The position numbers and the translations under genes are program-made. The notes below the pieces were generated by a model that was not told the DNA's origin, searched no databases, and saw nothing but the letters and a program-made list of their open reading frames with translations. From positions 136,736 to 200,735 of the forward strand of contig SUUJ01000001.1 in the NCBI GenBank assembly GCA_015062585.1: 64,000 bases of DNA, written 5' to 3'. Position 1 is the stretch's first letter; every line of letters starts with the position of its first letter. The stretch comes from Alphaproteobacteria bacterium. GTDB taxonomy: Bacteria; Pseudomonadota; Alphaproteobacteria; RF32; CAG-239. Below are positions 1 to 10,708 of the stretch, in pieces.

Positions 1-1084
1 TTGTAACAGATTTTTGCGCTCTTATATCATTTATGATTTTGCCCCAGTGAAATATCGGCATAATTGTTTCGATACTGTTGGAATACATATTAAAATCTTT
101 ATTGAAAATAGGCGAAAGAGTAGAGTTCTGATATCCTAAAAATGCTTCCAGCGAAAGAGCCGGCAACAGATTGCTGATTTTGTTACCGATTAGGGCGTTT
201 TGTGCAACAAGTTGTTGTTCCGAGGCCGTTACATCAGGACGGTTCCTGATAATATTTACCGGCAAATCATATAAAGCAGCCTTATCAAAAGAAAAGCTTT
301 TATTTAAAATGTCCGATTTTTCATCTTTTATATCAGAAGCCAATTCTCCGGTCAGAACGCTCAAAACATTTAAGTATTTGTTTTCATTCATTAAGAATTG
401 CGGTAACTGTTGCTTGGTCGATTTTAACAAACTTTCAGCCTGATTATAAACCAAAGTATCAACCAGTCCGGCATTATACTTATTTTTGATAGTATCAAAA
501 ATATGTTCCTGATTGGCAATATTTATAAGCGTTTCTTTTGCTAATTGCTGATATAATCGCCAGTTAAGATAAGCAATTGATATCTCGCTGATTAAAACTG
601 TCTTAACATTGTCAAAATCGGCACTGACCGAATCAAGCATGGCCATAGCACTTTCGCTCAAACGCCGTTTTCCGCCCCATATATCAATTTCCCACGAGGC
701 ATCAAGTCCCAATTGGTAATAATCTTGCTTTGTTGCCAAATCAGAAAATTTTGACGGATTTGATTTTACATATTCGCCATTTATATCAAAGCTTGGCAAT
801 AAATCGGCATTTGTCATATACAGATTATAGCGAGCCTGTTTCAATTTTTCTTTGGCAATATTGATGTTCGGGCTGTTTTTCAGCGCATTTTTAATCAATC
901 TGTCAAGTTTTTCATCTTCCAAAAACTTAAACCAATCAGCCGGAACGATTTTACCTGTTGAATTTGTAATTTTAAGATTTTGGGCAATTTGCTCATCGCT
1001 AAAGAACTCGTTTCGCTTATAATTCGGTCCTATTGCACAAGCGCTACAAAAAAGTATCAGTAAAAAGGGAAATAATTTATTCAT
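1..1084 (-). CDS. RND efflux outer membrane channel, NodT/TolC family lipoprotein (3' end cut by window edge)
   Basis: Absent from the ORF track because its stop lies beyond base 1, but the frame is open from the ATG at 1084 down to the edge (about 361 codons). The N-terminus is a short signal with a lipobox-like cysteine (LFCSAC) followed by AIGPNYKR, the usual beginning of NodT-type outer membrane factors (C-x-GP-x-Y-x-R). Further on there are the long helical stretches and the [11 protein letters not shown] motif typical of the family. It should form the outer membrane duct of the tripartite pump encoded by the two upstream genes. Its ATG overlaps the end of the RND permease gene by 8 bases, so the three genes form one operon. 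The substrate cannot be read from the sequence. Confidence 0.93.
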
Positions 1085-4000
1085 TTGCCTCATCCTTTTT
1101 GTTTTTGCCTTCTTTTAAGTGTTCAAACAGTGCAAAAAGAGCCGGAATAAAGACAATTCCCACGATTGTAGCACTAATCATACCAAAAAACACCGAAGAA
1201 CCGATAGCTATTTGACTTTGTGCGCCGGCGCCTGAGGCGACAATCATCGGAAACACTCCAAGTATAAAGGTCAGAGCAGTCATTAACACCGCTCGGAAGC
1301 GCTCATTTGCTCCCATAATGGCCGCATCAAAGATTGAGTAACCTTTTTCACGATATTCTTTATTAAACTCGACAATCAAGATTGCATTTTTCGCCGCCAA
1401 ACCGATAAGCATAATAAGCCCCAACTGAGCGTAGATACTTAACGGTTGCCCCATAAAGTGAAGTCCGACCAATGCACCCAAAATAGCAAAAACTACCGAA
1501 AACATAACGGCAAAAGCCAACATCCAACTTTCATACAATGCCACCAAAAACAGGTAGCAAAAAATCAAAGCCAGAGCGATAAGAATAACAGCCAAACCTT
1601 GCGCTTCTACTTCTTGCAAAGTAAGTCCGGTCCAAGCGGTCTTAAAAGTTTTTGGCAATACTTTATCCGATATTTCGACGATACTTTCAATTGCCGTTCC
1701 GCTACTTTTATTTTCGGCCACACCGCCGGTAACAGAGGCGGAAGAATAGGTGTTATAGCGATACAAAATCTTGGGTGATACTTCAATTCGATAATCGGCA
1801 ATATTTTTTACTCTGATCATATCGCCATTATTTGATTTAACATAAAGATTCATCACACTTTCAATGTTTTTTCGGCTGTTAAAATCAGCCTGAGCAATAA
1901 CTTTGTTAATTTGCCCGTCTAAAGTAATATTGTTGATATAGCTTGAGCCGAAATTATTGTTCAAAGCACTAAAAAGCGAAGAAACAGGAACATTAAGGCT
2001 TTCGGTTTTGGTGCGGTTAATATCCAAAAATATATGCGGAGTATCGGCGCGATATGTTGAAAAAGCATAAGCAATATTAGGATTTTCATTCAAAGCTTTG
2101 ATAAACAGGTTCAAGTTTTCAAACAATTGCTCTCCCGAGATATTGCCGTCCAACGCCAACAATTCAAAAGACAAGCCGTCAGAATTTCCCACTCCCGGAA
2201 TTGCCGGCGGAGCAAAAAAATCGATTTGAGCCGAATTGTCAGCCCCCAGCATTTTCATCAATTTTTGCGTGATTGCACCCGATGACAAAGACTTTTTCTT
2301 TCTTTTGCTCCAATTTTCAAGTCCGACCACACCCAAAGCCACATTTTCCCCGCCGCCACCGAGTATGGAATATCCGGCTACTCCGATAAAATATTTTACG
2401 CCCTCGGTTTTAAGCACCTTATCGGCAATATTGCTCAAAACATCGTTAGTTTTATTGATTGTGGCAATATTATCCAGTTGCACATTGGCAAAAATAATAC
2501 CTTGGTCTTCTTCGGGCAAAAATGAGGTCGGAGTAATATTAAACCCGATAACGCTTAGGACAATAGCGCCAATAACAACAATCGCGGTAAGTTTTATATT
2601 AGCGACAAAGATTTTCACAAATTCTAAATATTTTGCCTTAGCCTTATCAAGTAAAGCATTAAAGTTTTCAAAAAATTTGTGAGTTTTCGGCGCTTTATTA
2701 TCATTTAAGAAAATAGCGCAAAGTGACGGGCTTAAGGTTAGGGCGTTTACAGCCGAAAAAAACACCGAAGTAGCAATGGTCACGGCAAATTGCTGATATA
2801 TTTTTCCGGTAATACCGGCCATCAGGGCAACGGGAATAAATATTGCAAACAACACAAAGGTTGTAGCGATAATAGCCCCTGAAATATCTTTCATAGCCTT
2901 AATTGAGGCTGATTTAGCGTCGATTTTTTCTTCTTGGATAACATATTCGACGCGTTCGACCACAATAATTGCATCATCCACCACCAGTCCGATAGCCAAA
3001 ACAAGCGCAAACAAAGTCAAAATATTGATATCAAAGCCCAAAGCATATATAACGGCAAAAGTAGCAATCAGCGATACCGGAATGGTAATCAACGGAATGA
3101 GGGTAGTTTTTACTTTTTGCAAAAAAACATACACCACCAACACCACCAAAGAGAAAGTAATAATCAAAGTTTCGATAATTCCGGCGATTGAGGCTCTGAC
3201 AAAATCGGTCGAATCATAAGCCACTTCAAACAGCATATCGGCAGGAAAAGTTTTGCTCAGCTCGGCTATTTGTTTTTTGACATCATCCATAATATCCAAA
3301 GCGTTAGAGTTTGGCGTAGGGCTGAGCCCGATAATAACTGCCGGCGAATTATCAAAATGAGCACTCATATTATAAGTATCGGCACCCAGTTCGATACGCG
3401 CCACATCTTTCAACCGGACAATTCCGCCGTCATCAGCGGTAGTAATGATAATATTTTCAAACTCTTCGACCGAATCAAGCAATCCTTTGGCGGTCAAAGA
3501 AATCACCACCGGATTATTTTTCGGACTTGGGCTTGCGCCTATTGAACCGACCGAAGCTTCTATATTTTGGCTTTTGATAGCATTTACGATATCGGCCGAG
3601 CTCAAATTCAAAGCCGATATAGTCTCAGGTTTTAGCCAAATTCGCATAGAATTTTGCGGTCCGTAAATATCCACGCTTCCCATACCGGCAATTCTAAGCA
3701 AGGGATTTTTAATATTGTTATAAGCAAAGTTTGACAGATACAAACTGTCATAAGAGTTGTTAGGCGAGCGTAAAACGAGCATAGCCAACATATTTGCCGA
3801 CTGGCTCGAAATGTCGATACCCTCGCGTGTCACAATTTCCGGAAGTTGTGAATTAACCTGTTGCAAGCGGTTTTGTACCTTAACACGCGCCATATCGGGA
3901 TCGGTACCGACATTAAAAGTGATAGTCAGCTTGTAACTACCGTTATCATCGCTTGAAGACGACATATAAAGCATATCTTCGACGCCGTTTACCACATTTT

Positions 4001-4199
4001 CAATCGGTATAGCTACCGTATCGACCAAAACTTTAGCCGAAGCGCCGGGATAGGTTGCTTTTACAACAATTTGCGGAGGTGTAATATTCGGATACTGTGA
4101 AATCGGCAACACTGCGATTGCCAGCAAACCCAACAACACCAAAACAATTGAAACCACACCGGCAAAACGGGGCCTGTCAATAAAAATCTGAGAAAACAT
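1077..4199 (-). CDS. RND efflux permease, AcrB/HAE-1 family
   Basis: The 1040-residue product has the family's usual length and layout: an N-terminal membrane segment, two large periplasmic loops and two blocks of transmembrane helices. The paired aspartates of TM4 ([10 protein letters not shown]408-D409) and the lysine of TM10 (GLAAKNAIL, about K937) match the proton relay of AcrB (D407, D408, K940). It is an inner membrane drug/proton antiporter working with the adaptor gene just upstream and the outer membrane channel just downstream. Its start lies one base after the adaptor stop, and its end overlaps the channel start by 8 bases. No tetR- or marR-type regulator is visible in the window. 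Substrate range unknown. Confidence 0.97.
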
Positions 4200-4200
4200 C

Positions 4201-5331
4201 TCACCTAGCCTCCGTCTTACTATCGATAATCTTGATTTTCAGTTTAGTTCCTGCGGTTATATTATCGACATTACCGACCACCAAAAAGTCATTTTTAGCA
4301 AAATCATTATCTGTTACATAATCATTATTATAATATCCGAGAATCTTAAGCTTTTCTTTTCGCAAGCTGTTATTTTTTATGACATAAACAAAAGCGCCGT
4401 CGTCAGCAAGCCTGACATATTTTCGATCAATTACAAAAACATCGGTCAGCTTTTTAGACACCGCGACCGTAACATACGAATTGGCCAACAGCACATTATC
4501 CGGATTTTCAAAATCGACAAATACGGCCAAAGAACTGGTCAATTTATTGATTTTGTTATCAAAATAGGCAAATTTTCCTTTGTTTTGATACCAAGAGTTG
4601 TCAGCCAGCTTTAATTTTATTTCATATTTGTCAGAATCCTGTGTCAAATTTGCAAAATTATTCAAAATATCTTTATCCGGTATGGCAAATTCCACTCGAA
4701 TGGGCGAGGTTTGAATAACATCAAAAAGTTTGGTTTGTCCGGCGCTGATAAAATCGCCTTTGGTTAGTCCGACAGCACCAACCAAGCCGTTAATCGAAGA
4801 TTGCAAAACGGTATAATCCAGAATAACTCTGGCTTTTTCCACTTCGGCCTTAGCTTGTTTCATTTTGGCCTCAGCAGATAAAAAAGAAGCTTTTGCATTA
4901 TCGATATCCGAGGCGGAAACGGCGTTTTTTCCGGCTTTTATAATGCGGTTATAATAGTTTTTTGCATTAAAATATTCGGCTTCGGCCATTTTAAGCGAAG
5001 CATTTGCCGCCTCAAAATCGGCCTTGTATTGTTTTTGGTCAATAAGGAGCAGATTGTCACCTTCATTAACTTTGTCGCCGCCTTTGACAAATATTTCATC
5101 AATATATCCCGAAACATTAGCCATAACTTCAAGCGAATTTATCGGAATTACATAACCGACATATTCATTACTTAAGTTTATATTTTGTTTAATCAGCGAC
5201 ATCACATCGACGCTAAGCGTTGGCGTGTCTTCGATTTTTGACAAAGCCTCCGGTTTGATAAAAAAACAAAAGAATAGGGCAAAGACAAGTATTAAAGCCA
5301 ATTTGTATTTTAATTTTATTGATTTAAGCAT
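4201..5331 (-). CDS. RND efflux periplasmic adaptor (membrane fusion protein, AcrA/HlyD type)
   Basis: The product bridges the RND permease and the outer membrane channel. An N-terminal hydrophobic anchor ([15 protein letters not shown]) is followed by a lipoyl-like half-motif ([20 protein letters not shown]), an alpha-helical hairpin rich in Ala, Lys and Glu, the second lipoyl half and a beta-barrel region ([11 protein letters not shown]). The ORF track opens at 5433, but the ATG at 5331 is preferred: it begins directly before the membrane anchor and has GAGG about 9 bases upstream. The track start would add 34 residues that look like untranslated DNA. Length from this start is 376 residues, normal for the family. 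First gene of the efflux operon. Confidence 0.93.
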
Positions 5332-5478: not shown

Positions 5479-6498
5479 TTAGCTATTGGTTTCAAGACCT
5501 AGTTCTCGGCAGGCCCCTTTTATTGCTTCATACTCAACAGCAGCGCTTAAATCTGTACAGGCACCCAAACGACTTGTAGTACTGCAAACAGTACAAAGGT
5601 CATTAAATCCGCCGCCACCTCCTGATCCGTTAGAACCTGATCCGCTAGAACCTGATCCGCTGGAACCTGATCCGCTGGAACCTGATCCGACAGTAGTTGT
5701 TATACCATTATCACCGGTTATATTCTTCAATTCACATCGCAAACCATCAGCAGAAAGTTCAAATTCTCCCAAACAACTGTCACAGTTGTCTCCTGTTCTT
5801 CCTCCCGTACATACGCATTTATTAAGCATCGAAAAATATATTTTCCCATCACCGCAATTGCACAATCCTCCTTCGCCGCGTGTCGCACCGTCAGGACATT
5901 TAGGCTGACAGGCACCGCTAACTAACTCCGTTCCTTCTGGACATTTTTCAGGCTCTCTTATTGCAGAATTTTCAGGCTTTGAACAGAAGTAATAATTGCT
6001 ATCAAAAGGACAAGGCAAAGCAATTCGTCCTTCACATTTCTCAAGATCATCTACTGTGAAACCCAATTTTACACAATCGGTTGAAGTAGTATCACAATCG
6101 AAAGGAGTAGACACGATGTCATCTGCTTCATCATTTTCATCACCACTGTCATCAGCTGTAGTAGTAGGTGTGTCTTCTTCTGGTGTTTCACCGGTATCTT
6201 CGGTTGTTTCGGTACCACCGGTATCATCTGTTTCACCTGTATCACCTGTTTCACCGGTATCGCCGGTGTCTCCGGTATCACCGGAACCGTTAGTAACACC
6301 AAAATAACAATCTTCTACAGTAGGATCACAAGCATCCCCGGCATCTTTTTGTTCAGTTTCTACCAAATTAAAATCTCCAGTGCCATATCCGGATTCACCG
6401 GTTTGCGTAGGTCCAGGAATATTCAACTCCACGGAGTAAGCCGGTTGAACATATAAGCCAAACAAAGCTATTGTTGTAATTAAAAGTATCTTTTTCAT
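5479..6498 (-). CDS. Secreted cysteine-rich protein with Gly-Asp-Thr and Gly-Ser repeats
   Basis: Family not recognised. The 339-residue product has a clear signal peptide (MKKILLITTIALFGLYVQPAYS). Then follow an acidic low-complexity stretch of GDT/GET repeats (about residues 73-100) leading into Thr/Glu/Asp-rich sequence, a cysteine-rich middle with EGF-like spacing (CNCGDGKIYF, CVCTGGRTGDNCDSC), a tract of SGSGS repeats (about 272-290) and a C-terminal segment with four cysteines. The motif CPFDSNYYFC resembles CPYDDKKVFC in the large neighbouring gene, which links the two proteins. An extracytoplasmic, disulfide-bonded location is inferred from the signal peptide and the cysteines. The gene starts 12 bases after the large gene, with its own AGGAG, so they are co-transcribed. 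Both repeat tracts have many near-identical codons and may vary in length between strains. Confidence 0.8.
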   Translation of the reverse strand: MKKILLITTIALFGLYVQPAYSVELNIPGPTQTGESGYGTGDFNLVETEQKDAGDACDPTVEDCYFGVTNGSGDTGDTGDTGETGDTGETDDTGGTETTEDTGETPEEDTPTTTADDSGDENDEADDIVSTPFDCDTTSTDCVKLGFTVDDLEKCEGRIALPCPFDSNYYFCSKPENSAIREPEKCPEGTELVSGACQPKCPDGATRGEGGLCNCGDGKIYFSMLNKCVCTGGRTGDNCDSCLGEFELSADGLRCELKNITGDNGITTTVGSGSSGSGSSGSGSSGSGSNGSGGGGGFNDLCTVCSTTSRLGACTDLSAAVEYEAIKGACRELGLETNS

Positions 6499-6510: not shown

Positions 6511-9500
6511 TTATTTATTTAAAACCGGTGCTTGACAAAACGAACTGTTAATGCAAGTCGAATATATATCAAAAGCATCTCCATCTTCATCAAGACACTC
6601 GGAAAGGATTGCACGAGCATCTTCGTCTTCCGCTGTGTAATGTCTGAAGGTATCAAGAGATATAACTGTACCATCAACATATATACCATCGTCTATAAAT
6701 ATACATTTAGCATCAGCAAATTCATTGGCTATGATAGACGCTTGTGTGCTATCGGGAAGAGCTAAAAAGAGATTATTCGCATCACATGTTGCCTTGGCAT
6801 TGTAATAACTCTGTAACGGAATATCATTATTTCTCGGTTCATACATGCTGGAGCTTGTTATAACATTACTAGGACACTTGCTACTATCAGTATCAACAAC
6901 AAAATATTCATTCTCATAATCAGTACAAGTCATTGTTAAACCATCGTAATATTGTCCTGTTTGACAATTCCAACCATCATAACAAACATTATTCATGTAT
7001 GTTTGTCCTTCGGAACAAACTGCAAGAGAGTGTGTATTATATATAACTGCTCTTACCTTCATCATATCGTTAGTTCCTGATTCATTAGATATGCAACGTT
7101 CAAAGTTAACAGTTTGCCCTGTTACTCCTCCTGTAGGATTAGCTGCACTAACATCAGAGTTTGAATAATTGCCCACAACCATTGCTGTACCAACCAGTAA
7201 ACCATCTTGTGCATAGTGACATGTATTGTACTTATTTTTAATCTTTTTATTCACAAAATCATATTCATTCAGGTTTAATGCTTTTGTTTTAACATTTGAA
7301 GCCAAACCGCTTATAGCATTACCTAATGTTGTTCCTATAGATGTACTAGGTGTTTGATTCAAATCAACAAGTTTTAATTTCATTGAACCCTGCTTAATGT
7401 CAGAAACAGACAATACAAAATAGTCTTGTTGATCTGTTGTACAGTACTGACTTTCGCCATCATAGTACATTCCGGCAGCACAAATCGGCTCGCAACTATA
7501 ACAACTTAAGTTTGTTCCTGTTGGAGTTACAACATCACAGCTCTTTTGTGCTAATGGTTTAGTGGTATGGTAATTTAAAGTTTCACAAGTTACTTTTTTA
7601 CAGTTATTATAACAGTGTAAACCATCTACTTCCACAGGATCACACTGATATCCGTCAGACTGTACGGTATAATAACCATAATCACCACAAGTCGATTGGT
7701 GACAGTTTGTGAAGCAGTTCACACCTTCAACGGTTTGCACAGTATCACAAGTTTGTCCGGCCGGAGTTGAAGATTCCCAACCTTTGGCAGTACAAGCATC
7801 ATTAGCATAGATTTGTGCCGGGAAGGTCTTTTTACAAATTATACCTTTATCACTGGTTCCAGTACTATTAGATGAACCTCCAATTGTAAGAAAAACACCA
7901 TCCGCAGCAAGCCAATCTACTTCGGCGCTCGAGCCTGCAAAGTTCGGATCATGATCCAACGGGTAAGTGCCAAATTTATTATAAACCATTTCCAAATGAC
8001 TTATAGACAACAAGTCGTGATCAAATCCGCTTGCTTCACACTTTTCACGAGCTGTGGCTTGCATTTCAGCATGACTCTTACATGTTACCGGAACATTAGA
8101 TCCGTCACTGCATTCACTTCCTTTTAATACAAAGCCTTTTTGATCCCATACAGCTGTTTCCAGAATCTTACCATGAGCAGTACTATGAACACCAACTACA
8201 TAGTATCCACCAGAACCTTCTATTTTGCTACATTTGTTTTGGACGTCATTGTAAAAGTCGCCAACTTCACAATCATCGGGCACATCATATATTGAACAAA
8301 ATACTTTTTTGTCGTCATATGGGCAACGAATGAATTCAAAACCATAGTATTGGCAAGCTGATTCTGTCATCCTATAACCCAATTCTTCACATGTCGGCAA
8401 AGAAATACAAGGAACATCATCAGCAACAGGATTAGAACTGTTTCTCCAATTACCCCATGCTGTGTTTTTGTCACATATAGGAGTTCCATTCGTAGGTATT
8501 ATGCAACCGACTTTTTTGCGACAAGTCAAATAATCGTAACATGTATCTCCCGAAGGACAACCGTTTTCGCCATCGCCATCAGTCATAAGCGTCATAACAG
8601 ATGAAACCTCGTATATATATCTGCTATCAGCACCCGCAACTCTGTGAGTATCATATATATCAGTGTAGAGTCCATTCTCATTAGGTCCGTCATGGTACAC
8701 TTCATAGCCGTCTGCACAGCCGGACACCTTGATTGCTCTCACATCTTCACTCTTGTCAGTAACACCAGAGTGCTTAAATGCAGAAAGTTGATTGGTATCA
8801 CCATATAACATAGGATCTAAACAATAGTTGCCTTTACTGTCACGGCGTCCATGTACAAATGATAAAACATACGGACAGCTATAATGTATTTTGACATTAT
8901 TTTCATCATCAAAACCATTCCCTCTATCCGTACCGGTTAACATACAATCGGTGTTATCACCGGAATCATAACATCTGTCATCATCATCTTTACATGTACC
9001 ATTGAAATAGTAGTAGTTAAACGATTGAAAACGTTCAGCTTTCTTTGATTCATAATTTGCACAAACACTGGAAGGCTGAGATGTTTTTATGGCATTACCA
9101 TAAACAACCCTCTTACCGGTGGCATCATACATAAAACCTGTGAGGCCAGCATCAGAAACACATCCTAAAAGATTACTTTTGTTCTTAAAACTACCAAAAT
9201 TTTTCAAACCGGCAAAAGCCCAGTTAAAGTATACTTTGTACGAAATCGGATCGTTTTTGAAGAACACAGAATGCTGATAACTTGAACTATTTGAAGTTGC
9301 AATAACCTTTGATATATCATCAGAATTTAGTGTATAATGTGATGCACGACATTTCAACTTATCAAGGGCGTAACAAGTTTTAGATTTTCCAACACCATTC
9401 AAAACATTAACAGTTCCTTCTCCTGACGCATCAAAAATTAATGTTACCGCGCCCATATCAGTAGCATTATCAGGATTACATTCGATATCGGAGACATAGA

Positions 9501-9936
9501 TAGTATTATCCTTAGGATCCTTACACGTCTTAGCACCATCAGCAACTTTGAAGTAAGAATTAGCATTTACATCAGCTTCTTTATAAGGGAATTTGGAAGT
9601 ATCACATATACAATCATAATAACAATTAGCTTTGGCGGTACCCTCGGAAGTAGTTTCATTACCATCACCATCAATTTCTTTAGTTTTGATAGTAACGGTT
9701 TGAGACTTACAAGAAAGATTAGGATCAGGTTTCACTCTAAACCAATCATCACCTTGCGATTTACAAATAGCGTCAGCGTCTTTGTTATAGAGGTTGTCTT
9801 CACTATCACCATCACGACGAGAGCCAAAGAGCAAAGAGTAAGCAATATCGTTAAGTCCGGTAATGGCAGCAAAAGCAGGAGAGACACAAGAAAAGAAGAA
9901 TGAAACGAAGAAGAAGGAAAGTAAATATTTTTTCAT
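6511..9936 (-). CDS. Large secreted cysteine-rich repeat protein
   Basis: Family not recognised. The start at 9936 is preferred over the track start (9975) because AGGAGA lies 5 bases upstream and it begins the signal peptide (MKKYLLSFFFVSFFFSCVSPAFA); this gives 1141 residues. In track numbering, three copies of C-x2-G-x-[FY]Y-[DN]-[GD]-x5-C followed by a Y[FY]V strand occur near residues 569, 832 and 1004. A roughly 35-residue Cys repeat (GYYTVQSDGYQCDP, then CYNNC) occurs three times in tandem at about 728-828. Segments around 630-720 and 1030-1140 have the A-x-C-x-G-x2-L-x-S/P pattern that could be a C-type-lectin-like or related fold, but this is a guess. Dozens of cysteines imply an oxidised, exported protein; surface adhesin or matrix roles are possible. 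First gene of a two-gene operon with the smaller Cys-rich protein. Confidence 0.82.
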   Translation of the reverse strand: MKKYLLSFFFVSFFFSCVSPAFAAITGLNDIAYSLLFGSRRDGDSEDNLYNKDADAICKSQGDDWFRVKPDPNLSCKSQTVTIKTKEIDGDGNETTSEGTAKANCYYDCICDTSKFPYKEADVNANSYFKVADGAKTCKDPKDNTIYVSDIECNPDNATDMGAVTLIFDASGEGTVNVLNGVGKSKTCYALDKLKCRASHYTLNSDDISKVIATSNSSSYQHSVFFKNDPISYKVYFNWAFAGLKNFGSFKNKSNLLGCVSDAGLTGFMYDATGKRVVYGNAIKTSQPSSVCANYESKKAERFQSFNYYYFNGTCKDDDDRCYDSGDNTDCMLTGTDRGNGFDDENNVKIHYSCPYVLSFVHGRRDSKGNYCLDPMLYGDTNQLSAFKHSGVTDKSEDVRAIKVSGCADGYEVYHDGPNENGLYTDIYDTHRVAGADSRYIYEVSSVMTLMTDGDGENGCPSGDTCYDYLTCRKKVGCIIPTNGTPICDKNTAWGNWRNSSNPVADDVPCISLPTCEELGYRMTESACQYYGFEFIRCPYDDKKVFCSIYDVPDDCEVGDFYNDVQNKCSKIEGSGGYYVVGVHSTAHGKILETAVWDQKGFVLKGSECSDGSNVPVTCKSHAEMQATAREKCEASGFDHDLLSISHLEMVYNKFGTYPLDHDPNFAGSSAEVDWLAADGVFLTIGGSSNSTGTSDKGIICKKTFPAQIYANDACTAKGWESSTPAGQTCDTVQTVEGVNCFTNCHQSTCGDYGYYTVQSDGYQCDPVEVDGLHCYNNCKKVTCETLNYHTTKPLAQKSCDVVTPTGTNLSCYSCEPICAAGMYYDGESQYCTTDQQDYFVLSVSDIKQGSMKLKLVDLNQTPSTSIGTTLGNAISGLASNVKTKALNLNEYDFVNKKIKNKYNTCHYAQDGLLVGTAMVVGNYSNSDVSAANPTGGVTGQTVNFERCISNESGTNDMMKVRAVIYNTHSLAVCSEGQTYMNNVCYDGWNCQTGQYYDGLTMTCTDYENEYFVVDTDSSKCPSNVITSSSMYEPRNNDIPLQSYYNAKATCDANNLFLALPDSTQASIIANEFADAKCIFIDDGIYVDGTVISLDTFRHYTAEDEDARAILSECLDEDGDAFDIYSTCINSSFCQAPVLNK

Positions 9937-10013
9937 GACTGTTCTCCTAAAAAAGAGTAAAAACCTGTGATACAAAGCAGTTTACCACGCAGGCAAACTA
10001 CTAATTTTATTTT

Positions 10014-10134: not shown

Positions 10135-10173
10135 GTTAGCAATTATTAACAAGAAAAATAAGAAGCAAAACAA

Positions 10174-10222
10174 AGAAGATTCCTAGACGCACGGACGCAA
10201 ATGCGCCGAGCGAGGAATGACA
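10174..10222 (+). repeat. Dispersed palindromic repeat, copy 1
   Basis: The unit begins GAAGATTCCTAGACG and ends CGAGCGAGGAATGACA, so its outer ends (GATTCC and GGAATG) are inverted copies of each other. A near-identical copy lies at 54033-54079 and divergent ones follow in this intergenic region. No ORF or terminator explains it. The 18-base block AATGACATTATGTATTCA right after it recurs after copy 4. Confidence 0.8.
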
Positions 10223-10276
10223 TTATGTATTCACTAAAAGGCGATGACACTTTTAAATTAAAGAAACAAGAACAAA

Positions 10277-10320
10277 GTCATCCCTCGATTGCGTTGAGCA
10301 ATCGTCTAGGGATCTTCCTT
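10277..10320 (-). repeat. Dispersed palindromic repeat, copy 2 (inverted)
   Basis: Read on the minus strand it starts GAAGATCCCTAGACG and ends CGAGGGATGAC, matching copy 1 at both ends. Its centre is a perfect hairpin, CGATTGC / GCAATCG, that differs from the centre of copy 1. Conserved ends with a variable stem are characteristic of mobile palindromic repeats. Confidence 0.75.
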
Positions 10321-10337
10321 GTTTTTAAGAATAATTT

Positions 10338-10384
10338 GAAGATGCCAAGTCTCGCTACACTAAAGTTTCGCTCAAGGCATGACA
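10338..10384 (+). repeat. Dispersed palindromic repeat, copy 3 (divergent)
   Basis: It has the same frame of ends, GAAGATGCCAAG at the left and CAAGGCATGACA at the right, around a different core. Both ends carry the compensating change T/A to G/C (GATTCC to GATGCC, GGAATG to GGCATG), which preserves pairing and suggests the folded form matters. Confidence 0.65.
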
Positions 10385-10390
10385 TATTTT

Positions 10391-10440
10391 TTACGCTAAA
10401 GCGCCGAGTAAGGAATGACATTATGTATTCACTCAAGCGA
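10391..10440 (+). repeat. Dispersed palindromic repeat, partial copy 4 with flanking block
   Basis: The right half GCGCCGAGTAAGGAATGACA matches copy 1. It is followed by the same AATGACATTATGTATTCACT block that follows copy 1. A shorter relative (GTTATTCACTAAAAGGCGATGACA) occurs again at about 10530-10552. Confidence 0.6.
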
Positions 10441-10500
10441 TGACTTATTTATTTAAACTCATCTGGATTTTTAAGCAACTGAAGTTGCAAAAAATCCTAT

Positions 10501-10522
10501 CTTCCCTTAAAATTAAGGGAAG
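10501..10522. other. Perfect 22-bp palindrome in the intergenic region
   Basis: CTTCCCTTAA and TTAAGGGAAG are separated by two bases (AA). There is no following T-tract and no gene on either side within 200 bases, so it is not clearly a terminator. It could be a hairpin belonging to the repeat cluster or a protein-binding site. Apart from the repeats, this palindrome, a short GCGGTAA/TTACCGC hairpin at 10656-10673 and the promoters, nothing else was seen in 9937-10783. Confidence 0.5.
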
Positions 10523-10708
10523 AGAAAATGTTATTCACTAAAAGGCGATGACATAATTATATAAGAAATAACAATTGTTTTATAATATTAAAAAAATTTT
10601 TATTTCTCAAAAATCAAAAATATTCAAATATCACACAAAATCAATATATTAGCGCGCGGTAAGATGTTACCGCTTAATAACATATTGAAAAATAATGATA
10701 TTTTTTTG

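Follow-up and report, generated by a model that had tools for sequence, protein, structure and literature searches.

What is the large, cysteine-rich protein encoded near one end of this 64,000-nucleotide window (the whole stretch of DNA that was analysed), and does it form a dedicated surface or matrix system with the product of the neighbouring gene, as a sequence-only reading had proposed? From the comparisons described below, we see the protein as one mosaic among the members of a family-restricted exported repertoire, a description that suits it better than that of one half of a dedicated two-gene system. Specifically, we give a probability of roughly 55% to its being a Sec-exported, disulphide-cross-linked, adhesin-like mosaic protein that is part of such a family-specific set. 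The genome that harbours it measures 1.5 Mb, is assembled in 20 contigs and is listed as 100% complete.

The open reading frame spans 6511-9936 on the minus strand (1141 aa), from an ATG at 9936 that is preceded by a TAGGAG Shine-Dalgarno sequence to a stop at 6511; the TTG at 9975 returned by mechanical start calling is the less likely start. The product can be divided as follows, from the N- to the C-terminus:

9868..9936, minus strand: Sec-type signal peptide, aa 1-23, MKKYLLSFFFVSFFFSCVSPAFA/AIT (...SPAFA/AIT), by sequence inspection
8422..9867, minus strand: N-terminal core, aa 24-505, comprising a short head (AITGLNDIAYSLLFGSRRDGD), a diverged B-type Cys unit and a Cys-rich core
8293..8415, minus strand: module A, aa 508-548, of the CISLPTCEELGYRMTESACQYYGFEFIRCPYDDKKVFC type, with 5 Cys (profile A1, E 1.4e-17, this module being one of the profile's 27 rows)
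7795..8271, minus strand: linker motif CEVGDFYNDVQNKC and domain D1, aa 556-714, by motif count
7483..7794, minus strand: three tandem B modules, aa 715-818 (profile E 2.3e-14, 1.1e-13 and 5.3e-7, the three units being rows of the module B profile)
6967..7482, minus strand: linker motif and domain D2, aa 819-990 (paralogue L162, E 1.8e-5; hhalign 62%)
6514..6966, minus strand: linker motif and domain D3, aa 991-1141 (paralogue L162, E 2.5e-5; hhalign 73%)

Several features read from the sequence alone were borne out. Inspection supported the claimed export signal, and no lipobox was seen (no Cys follows the likely cleavage site AFA/AIT); an anchor, a sorting signal or an outer-membrane domain was likewise not found in the large protein. 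The 'dozens' of cysteines amount to 60 (5.3%), 59 of them in the mature chain, against 0-2.5% in the other window reading frames of at least 150 aa, the partner excepted (6.2%). The absence of a recognised family holds for Pfam and NCBIfam, where neither the large protein nor its partner had a match above threshold, and, for the large protein only, for the sequences of the PDB, again at the level of matches above threshold.

The protein is also built from internal repeats, as had been claimed, with two motif types in three copies each, far beyond what shuffling yields. The linker motif recurs at residues 556 (CEVGDFYNDVQNKC), 819 (CAAGMYYDGESQYC) and 991 (CQTGQYYDGLTMTC), with four residues after the [GD] position and not five, as originally written. 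For the tandem Cys repeat (aa 715-818), the three copies stood while the first consensus turned out to be too loose; the unit reads C-x(3-5)-[WY]-x(6-10)-C-D-x-V-x(3-8)-C-[FY]-x(1-2)-C. Because both motifs were picked after the sequence had been seen, their frequencies in shuffled versions of the protein, a mean of 0.00005 per shuffle for the linker (maximum 1, 20,000 shuffles) and of 0.0001 for the tandem repeat, are descriptive only. Independent support for both comes from their recurrence in relatives.

The segments differ in how far they can be traced. In BLAST searches the N-terminal core matched a gene of the sister species (L152a in G017, E 8e-9, 23% identity) and a paralogue in the window's own genome (L162, G000:C11:114017, 1072 aa, 68 Cys; E 2e-6). 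A profile of this core (A11) gave long matches exclusively in these two genomes, two in each, and outside them a weak match over the first ~130 positions only. The window B modules matched relatives independently in BLAST, with E values down to 7.9e-11. The likeness of D2 and D3 to each other and to L162 is weak, and the body of D1 found no match by profile search or hhalign. AlphaFold2 (AF2) modelled module A as a short helix and two short strands, with a pLDDT of 86-91 over most of its length; a Foldseek search of this model against the PDB returned nothing significant, the best small-protein match being a heliomicin mutant at E 7.5. In models of aa 503-714 and 713-1141, inspected for a C-type-lectin-like fold, D1-D3 were mostly below a pLDDT of 50, and the latter model, with a mean of 33.6, was set aside. 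A common linker and helix spacing had raised the suspicion that D1-D3 are diverged Lcl_C domains; this was not upheld, since a home-made profile of 27 members scored like shuffles and hhalign matched the linker region only.

The downstream surroundings of the gene, all on the same strand, are the following:

5479-6498, minus strand: partner gene, 339 aa, with signal peptide, 21 Cys (6.2%), acidic (pI about 4.05)
6188..6284, minus strand: low-complexity acidic GDTGDTGET linker of the partner, with a 9/18 bp DNA tandem repeat
5983..6096, minus strand: module A of the partner (CVKLGF...CPFDSNYYFC), about aa 135-172 (profile A1, E 1.2e-7, this module lying outside the 27 rows of the profile)
5621..5689, minus strand: Gly-Ser linker of the partner, with a 15-bp DNA repeat in 4.6 copies
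4201-5331, minus strand: membrane-fusion protein, named by inspection
1077-4199, minus strand: RND pump, named by inspection
beginning at 1093, minus strand: NodT/TolC-like outer-membrane factor, named by inspection

Twelve nucleotides separate the large-protein gene from its partner, and the RND efflux operon follows 147 nt downstream of the latter if its first gene starts at 5331. Upstream of the pair, across a gap of roughly 840 bp, lies the divergent rplM-rpsI; REP-like dispersed repeats, e.g. gaggaatgacattatgtattcact, can be discerned by eye in this gap (window 10150-10560). The DNA repeat units within the partner gene are all multiples of three, and a change in copy number would vary linker length without a frameshift.

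If the two genes formed a dedicated system, close relatives should carry the pair, and on this point the picture was mixed. In the closest relative by membrane-fusion protein (G017, 61% identical), two Cys-rich genes occupy the gap between efflux operon and rplM, the first a homologue of the core (E 8e-9) and the second a module-A protein (E 5e-4), in the same place and with gene order kept, yet inverted as a unit. In five further species (G009, G030, G031, G008 and G006) the same gap is empty. Among the species compared, the pair is common to two sister species and rearranged between them, and is thus not genus-wide. We rejected an obligate operon with the acrAB-tolC-like downstream genes, because the pair faces the opposite way in G017, and likewise an invertible DNA segment behind the flip, given that flanking inverted repeats were absent from both the window and the G017 locus (L152).

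At full length, the large protein had no counterpart among 93 relatives, while pieces of it match many proteins. That this holds even inside the genus, together with the rapid divergence of the core from its sister gene, could be read as the mark of a decaying or newly assembled orphan lacking a selected function, left over from a family of paralogues that expanded elsewhere. However, 1141 codons have stayed open, with start, ribosome-binding site and signal peptide intact, the Cys spacing of the modules is kept, and both L162 and the G017 pair are intact too. We regard such an orphan as quite improbable.

Module A is where the locus connects to a wider set. Its core, C-x3-LGY-x6-C-x(7-9)-CPxD-x5-C, is present in both exported window proteins, in line with the motif that had been noticed in the two sequences (CPYDDKKVFC in the large protein, CPFDSNYYFC in the partner). 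The A1 profile found module A in 44 of 94 relatives, all of the same family except for one marginal match, with up to 28 copies per genome within the genus. A sample of 398 other Pseudomonadota genomes contained none. Besides, the string CPFDxxKVFC occurred at 40 places in 264 Gb of prokaryote genomes, every one of which encodes a relative; all 40 lie in genomes of uncultured Proteobacteria, most of which carry the label Alphaproteobacteria, while several come from deer gut. The named relatives are mostly animal-associated or environmental MAGs, several of them from deer gut. As far as these searches reach, module A appears restricted to one bacterial family. A phage origin was rejected, as a scan of viral contigs yielded no relative, and so was a diversity-generating retroelement, there being no RVT_1 (reverse transcriptase) match in the window genome. 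Among the module-A matches listed for the genus, 17 lie within 350 nt of the first base of their contig, all on the plus strand (genomes G019, G021, G018, G027, G013 and G022), which suggests that shared 5' DNA breaks assemblies. In limited searches of the open-licence literature we found no description of module A or module B, though they may have been described elsewhere.

In relatives, module A usually stands directly behind the signal peptide, single or doubled, unlike in the window proteins, where it is internal in both. What comes after it varies: an Lcl_C/DUF1566 domain (E 1.7e-8), a phage tail Collar domain (E 1.9e-22), BspA-type leucine-rich repeats (DUF285/LRR_5, E 5e-12) or other C-termini that are beta-rich or Cys-rich. 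In many of these proteins the linker between module A and the domain after it resembles the three-copy C-x2-G motif of the large protein, one example being CEIGDVYYSDGSC in G038 (see below). Module A stands alone in many unrelated contexts, and both window proteins belong to a far larger set of exported mosaics that spans the family. This is the evidence on which the idea of a dedicated two-gene system gave way.

The same observations bear on two further explanations. A structural matrix or surface coat, in which cross-links between the Cys-rich modules of different molecules build a sheath that is extracellular or associated with the outer membrane, would suit the 59 mature-chain cysteines (since this number is odd, one Cys would be free for an intermolecular bond), as well as the acidic, repeat-rich composition and the long multi-module chain. 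On the other hand, no more than two module-A genes exist in the window genome, and several congeners have nothing at the site, which argues against an essential conserved coat, and the unrelated binding-type domains after module A in relatives suit diverse display over one lattice. We consider a coat unlikely, if worth keeping in mind. Constant N-terminal parts followed by polymorphic C-termini are also typical of toxin families, and gene content differs between species here, as one would expect of a secreted toxin, bacteriocin-like protein or effector whose Cys-rich modules serve delivery and whose active part is C-terminal. Yet none of the members scanned matched a toxin or nuclease family, and the pair is followed by the RND efflux operon instead of a small immunity-like gene; we rate this explanation as very unlikely.

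Module B, the second recurrent unit, points to the same family. Its profile matched 28 of 94 relatives, all from one family, with 53 copies in a single genome (G044), and its hosts are typically Cys-rich proteins of about 400-1800 aa. In the large protein it is represented by the three tandem C-x3-GY-x8-C-x8-GLxCY-x2-C units (E 2.3e-14 to 5.3e-7). Two giant exported proteins, L163 (G026, 1802 aa) and L164 (G008, 1746 aa), have a B module close to the N-terminus; L163 contains several Lcl_C domains in addition.

How large such a repertoire can become is illustrated by G038, a 1.6-Mb genome from another genus of the family, in which 91 module-A matches fall into about 60 exported open reading frames, mostly of 350-430 aa and scattered among housekeeping genes (loci L200-L213). 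In an alignment of 31 members, the signal peptide and first module show a mean DNA identity of 0.76-0.82, which drops to about 0.4 towards the C-terminus. First-module classes, whose labels hang on a 90% cut-off, are paired with differing second-module classes and C-terminal types. Further downstream, identical 40-mers amounting to about 398 nt recur in two genes whose first modules belong to different classes. This mosaicism suggests recombination between paralogues, as judged from alignments, and makes the question of gene conversion in gut symbionts testable. In another genome (CALYAW/G025), L066 contains most of the sequence of L065, minus the signal peptide and the 3' part, and looks like a silent donor copy or pseudogene.

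Returning to the favoured reading, an adhesin-like member of this repertoire, we infer both a function and a surface location for the large protein. The small Cys-rich modules may fold with disulphides in the periplasm into a rigid rod, and module A would serve as a common docking or cap piece presenting whichever domain comes next. The D domains might then contact host, mucus or neighbour-cell surfaces, with release or display perhaps occurring via the type IVb-pilus secretin of the genome. The partner could accompany it as a smaller protein that combines a flexible acidic stalk with module A and another Cys-rich region. A binding role is suggested by association: the domains found after module A are of types that bind glycans or surfaces in other settings, and the namesake of PF07603, Lcl, binds glycosaminoglycans and is held at the surface via its N-terminus. 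Against it speak the lack of an Lcl profile match in D1-D3, the hhalign match confined to the linker and the poor AF2 models of that part.

More speculatively, module A could be a previously undescribed docking domain that displays or secretes a large, interchangeable set of binding proteins diversified by paralogue recombination, with the window pair as a mosaic end product drawn from the same pool of modules. We are doubtful of this extension as a whole; if true, gut symbionts would possess a counterpart to antigenic-variation repertoires. Alphaproteobacteria like this one, still uncultured, occur in animal guts, and little is known of how they encounter the host. Two Cys modules that lack a Pfam match mark an exported repertoire reaching about 60 genes in a 1.6-Mb genome, and could serve as handles for annotating and testing host interaction.

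Among known systems, the Legionella protein Lcl is secreted, binds sulphated glycosaminoglycans and is held at the surface by its N-terminus, its C-terminal domain being devoid of disulphides (PMC11162425). The window protein is likewise exported, and Lcl, with an N-terminal surface-holding part and a terminal binding domain, has its parallel in relatives that carry PF07603 domains after module A or alongside module B. By contrast, Pfam detected no PF07603 (Lcl_C/DUF1566) in either the large protein or its partner, and the former has no collagen repeat and is Cys-rich. TcpF and CofJ are Sec-exported, soluble colonisation factors whose release is helped by type IVb pili (PMC9565799). The window genome possesses a PilN-type locus of this sort (L224, G000:C6:144000-163500) with a PilN secretin over the cut-off, PilO, T2SSE, T2SSF, a PilP-like protein and a pilin candidate, although the window pair is not encoded beside it and a link between the two would be conjectural. 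The tandem small Cys modules are reminiscent of the eukaryote-like Ephrin_rec_like (PF07699) and cEGF (PF12662) repeats; Pfam matched neither in the window protein, while a congener's Cys-rich protein with a B unit contains Ephrin_rec_like repeats (E 2.4e-10). Finally, Msp2 of Anaplasma exemplifies a modular surface-protein repertoire shuffled by recombination. No expression site or switching was seen here, and the window genome has its two module-A genes only, but the G038 paralogues resemble such a repertoire in their constant part with variable ends, their small genome and their mosaic sharing.
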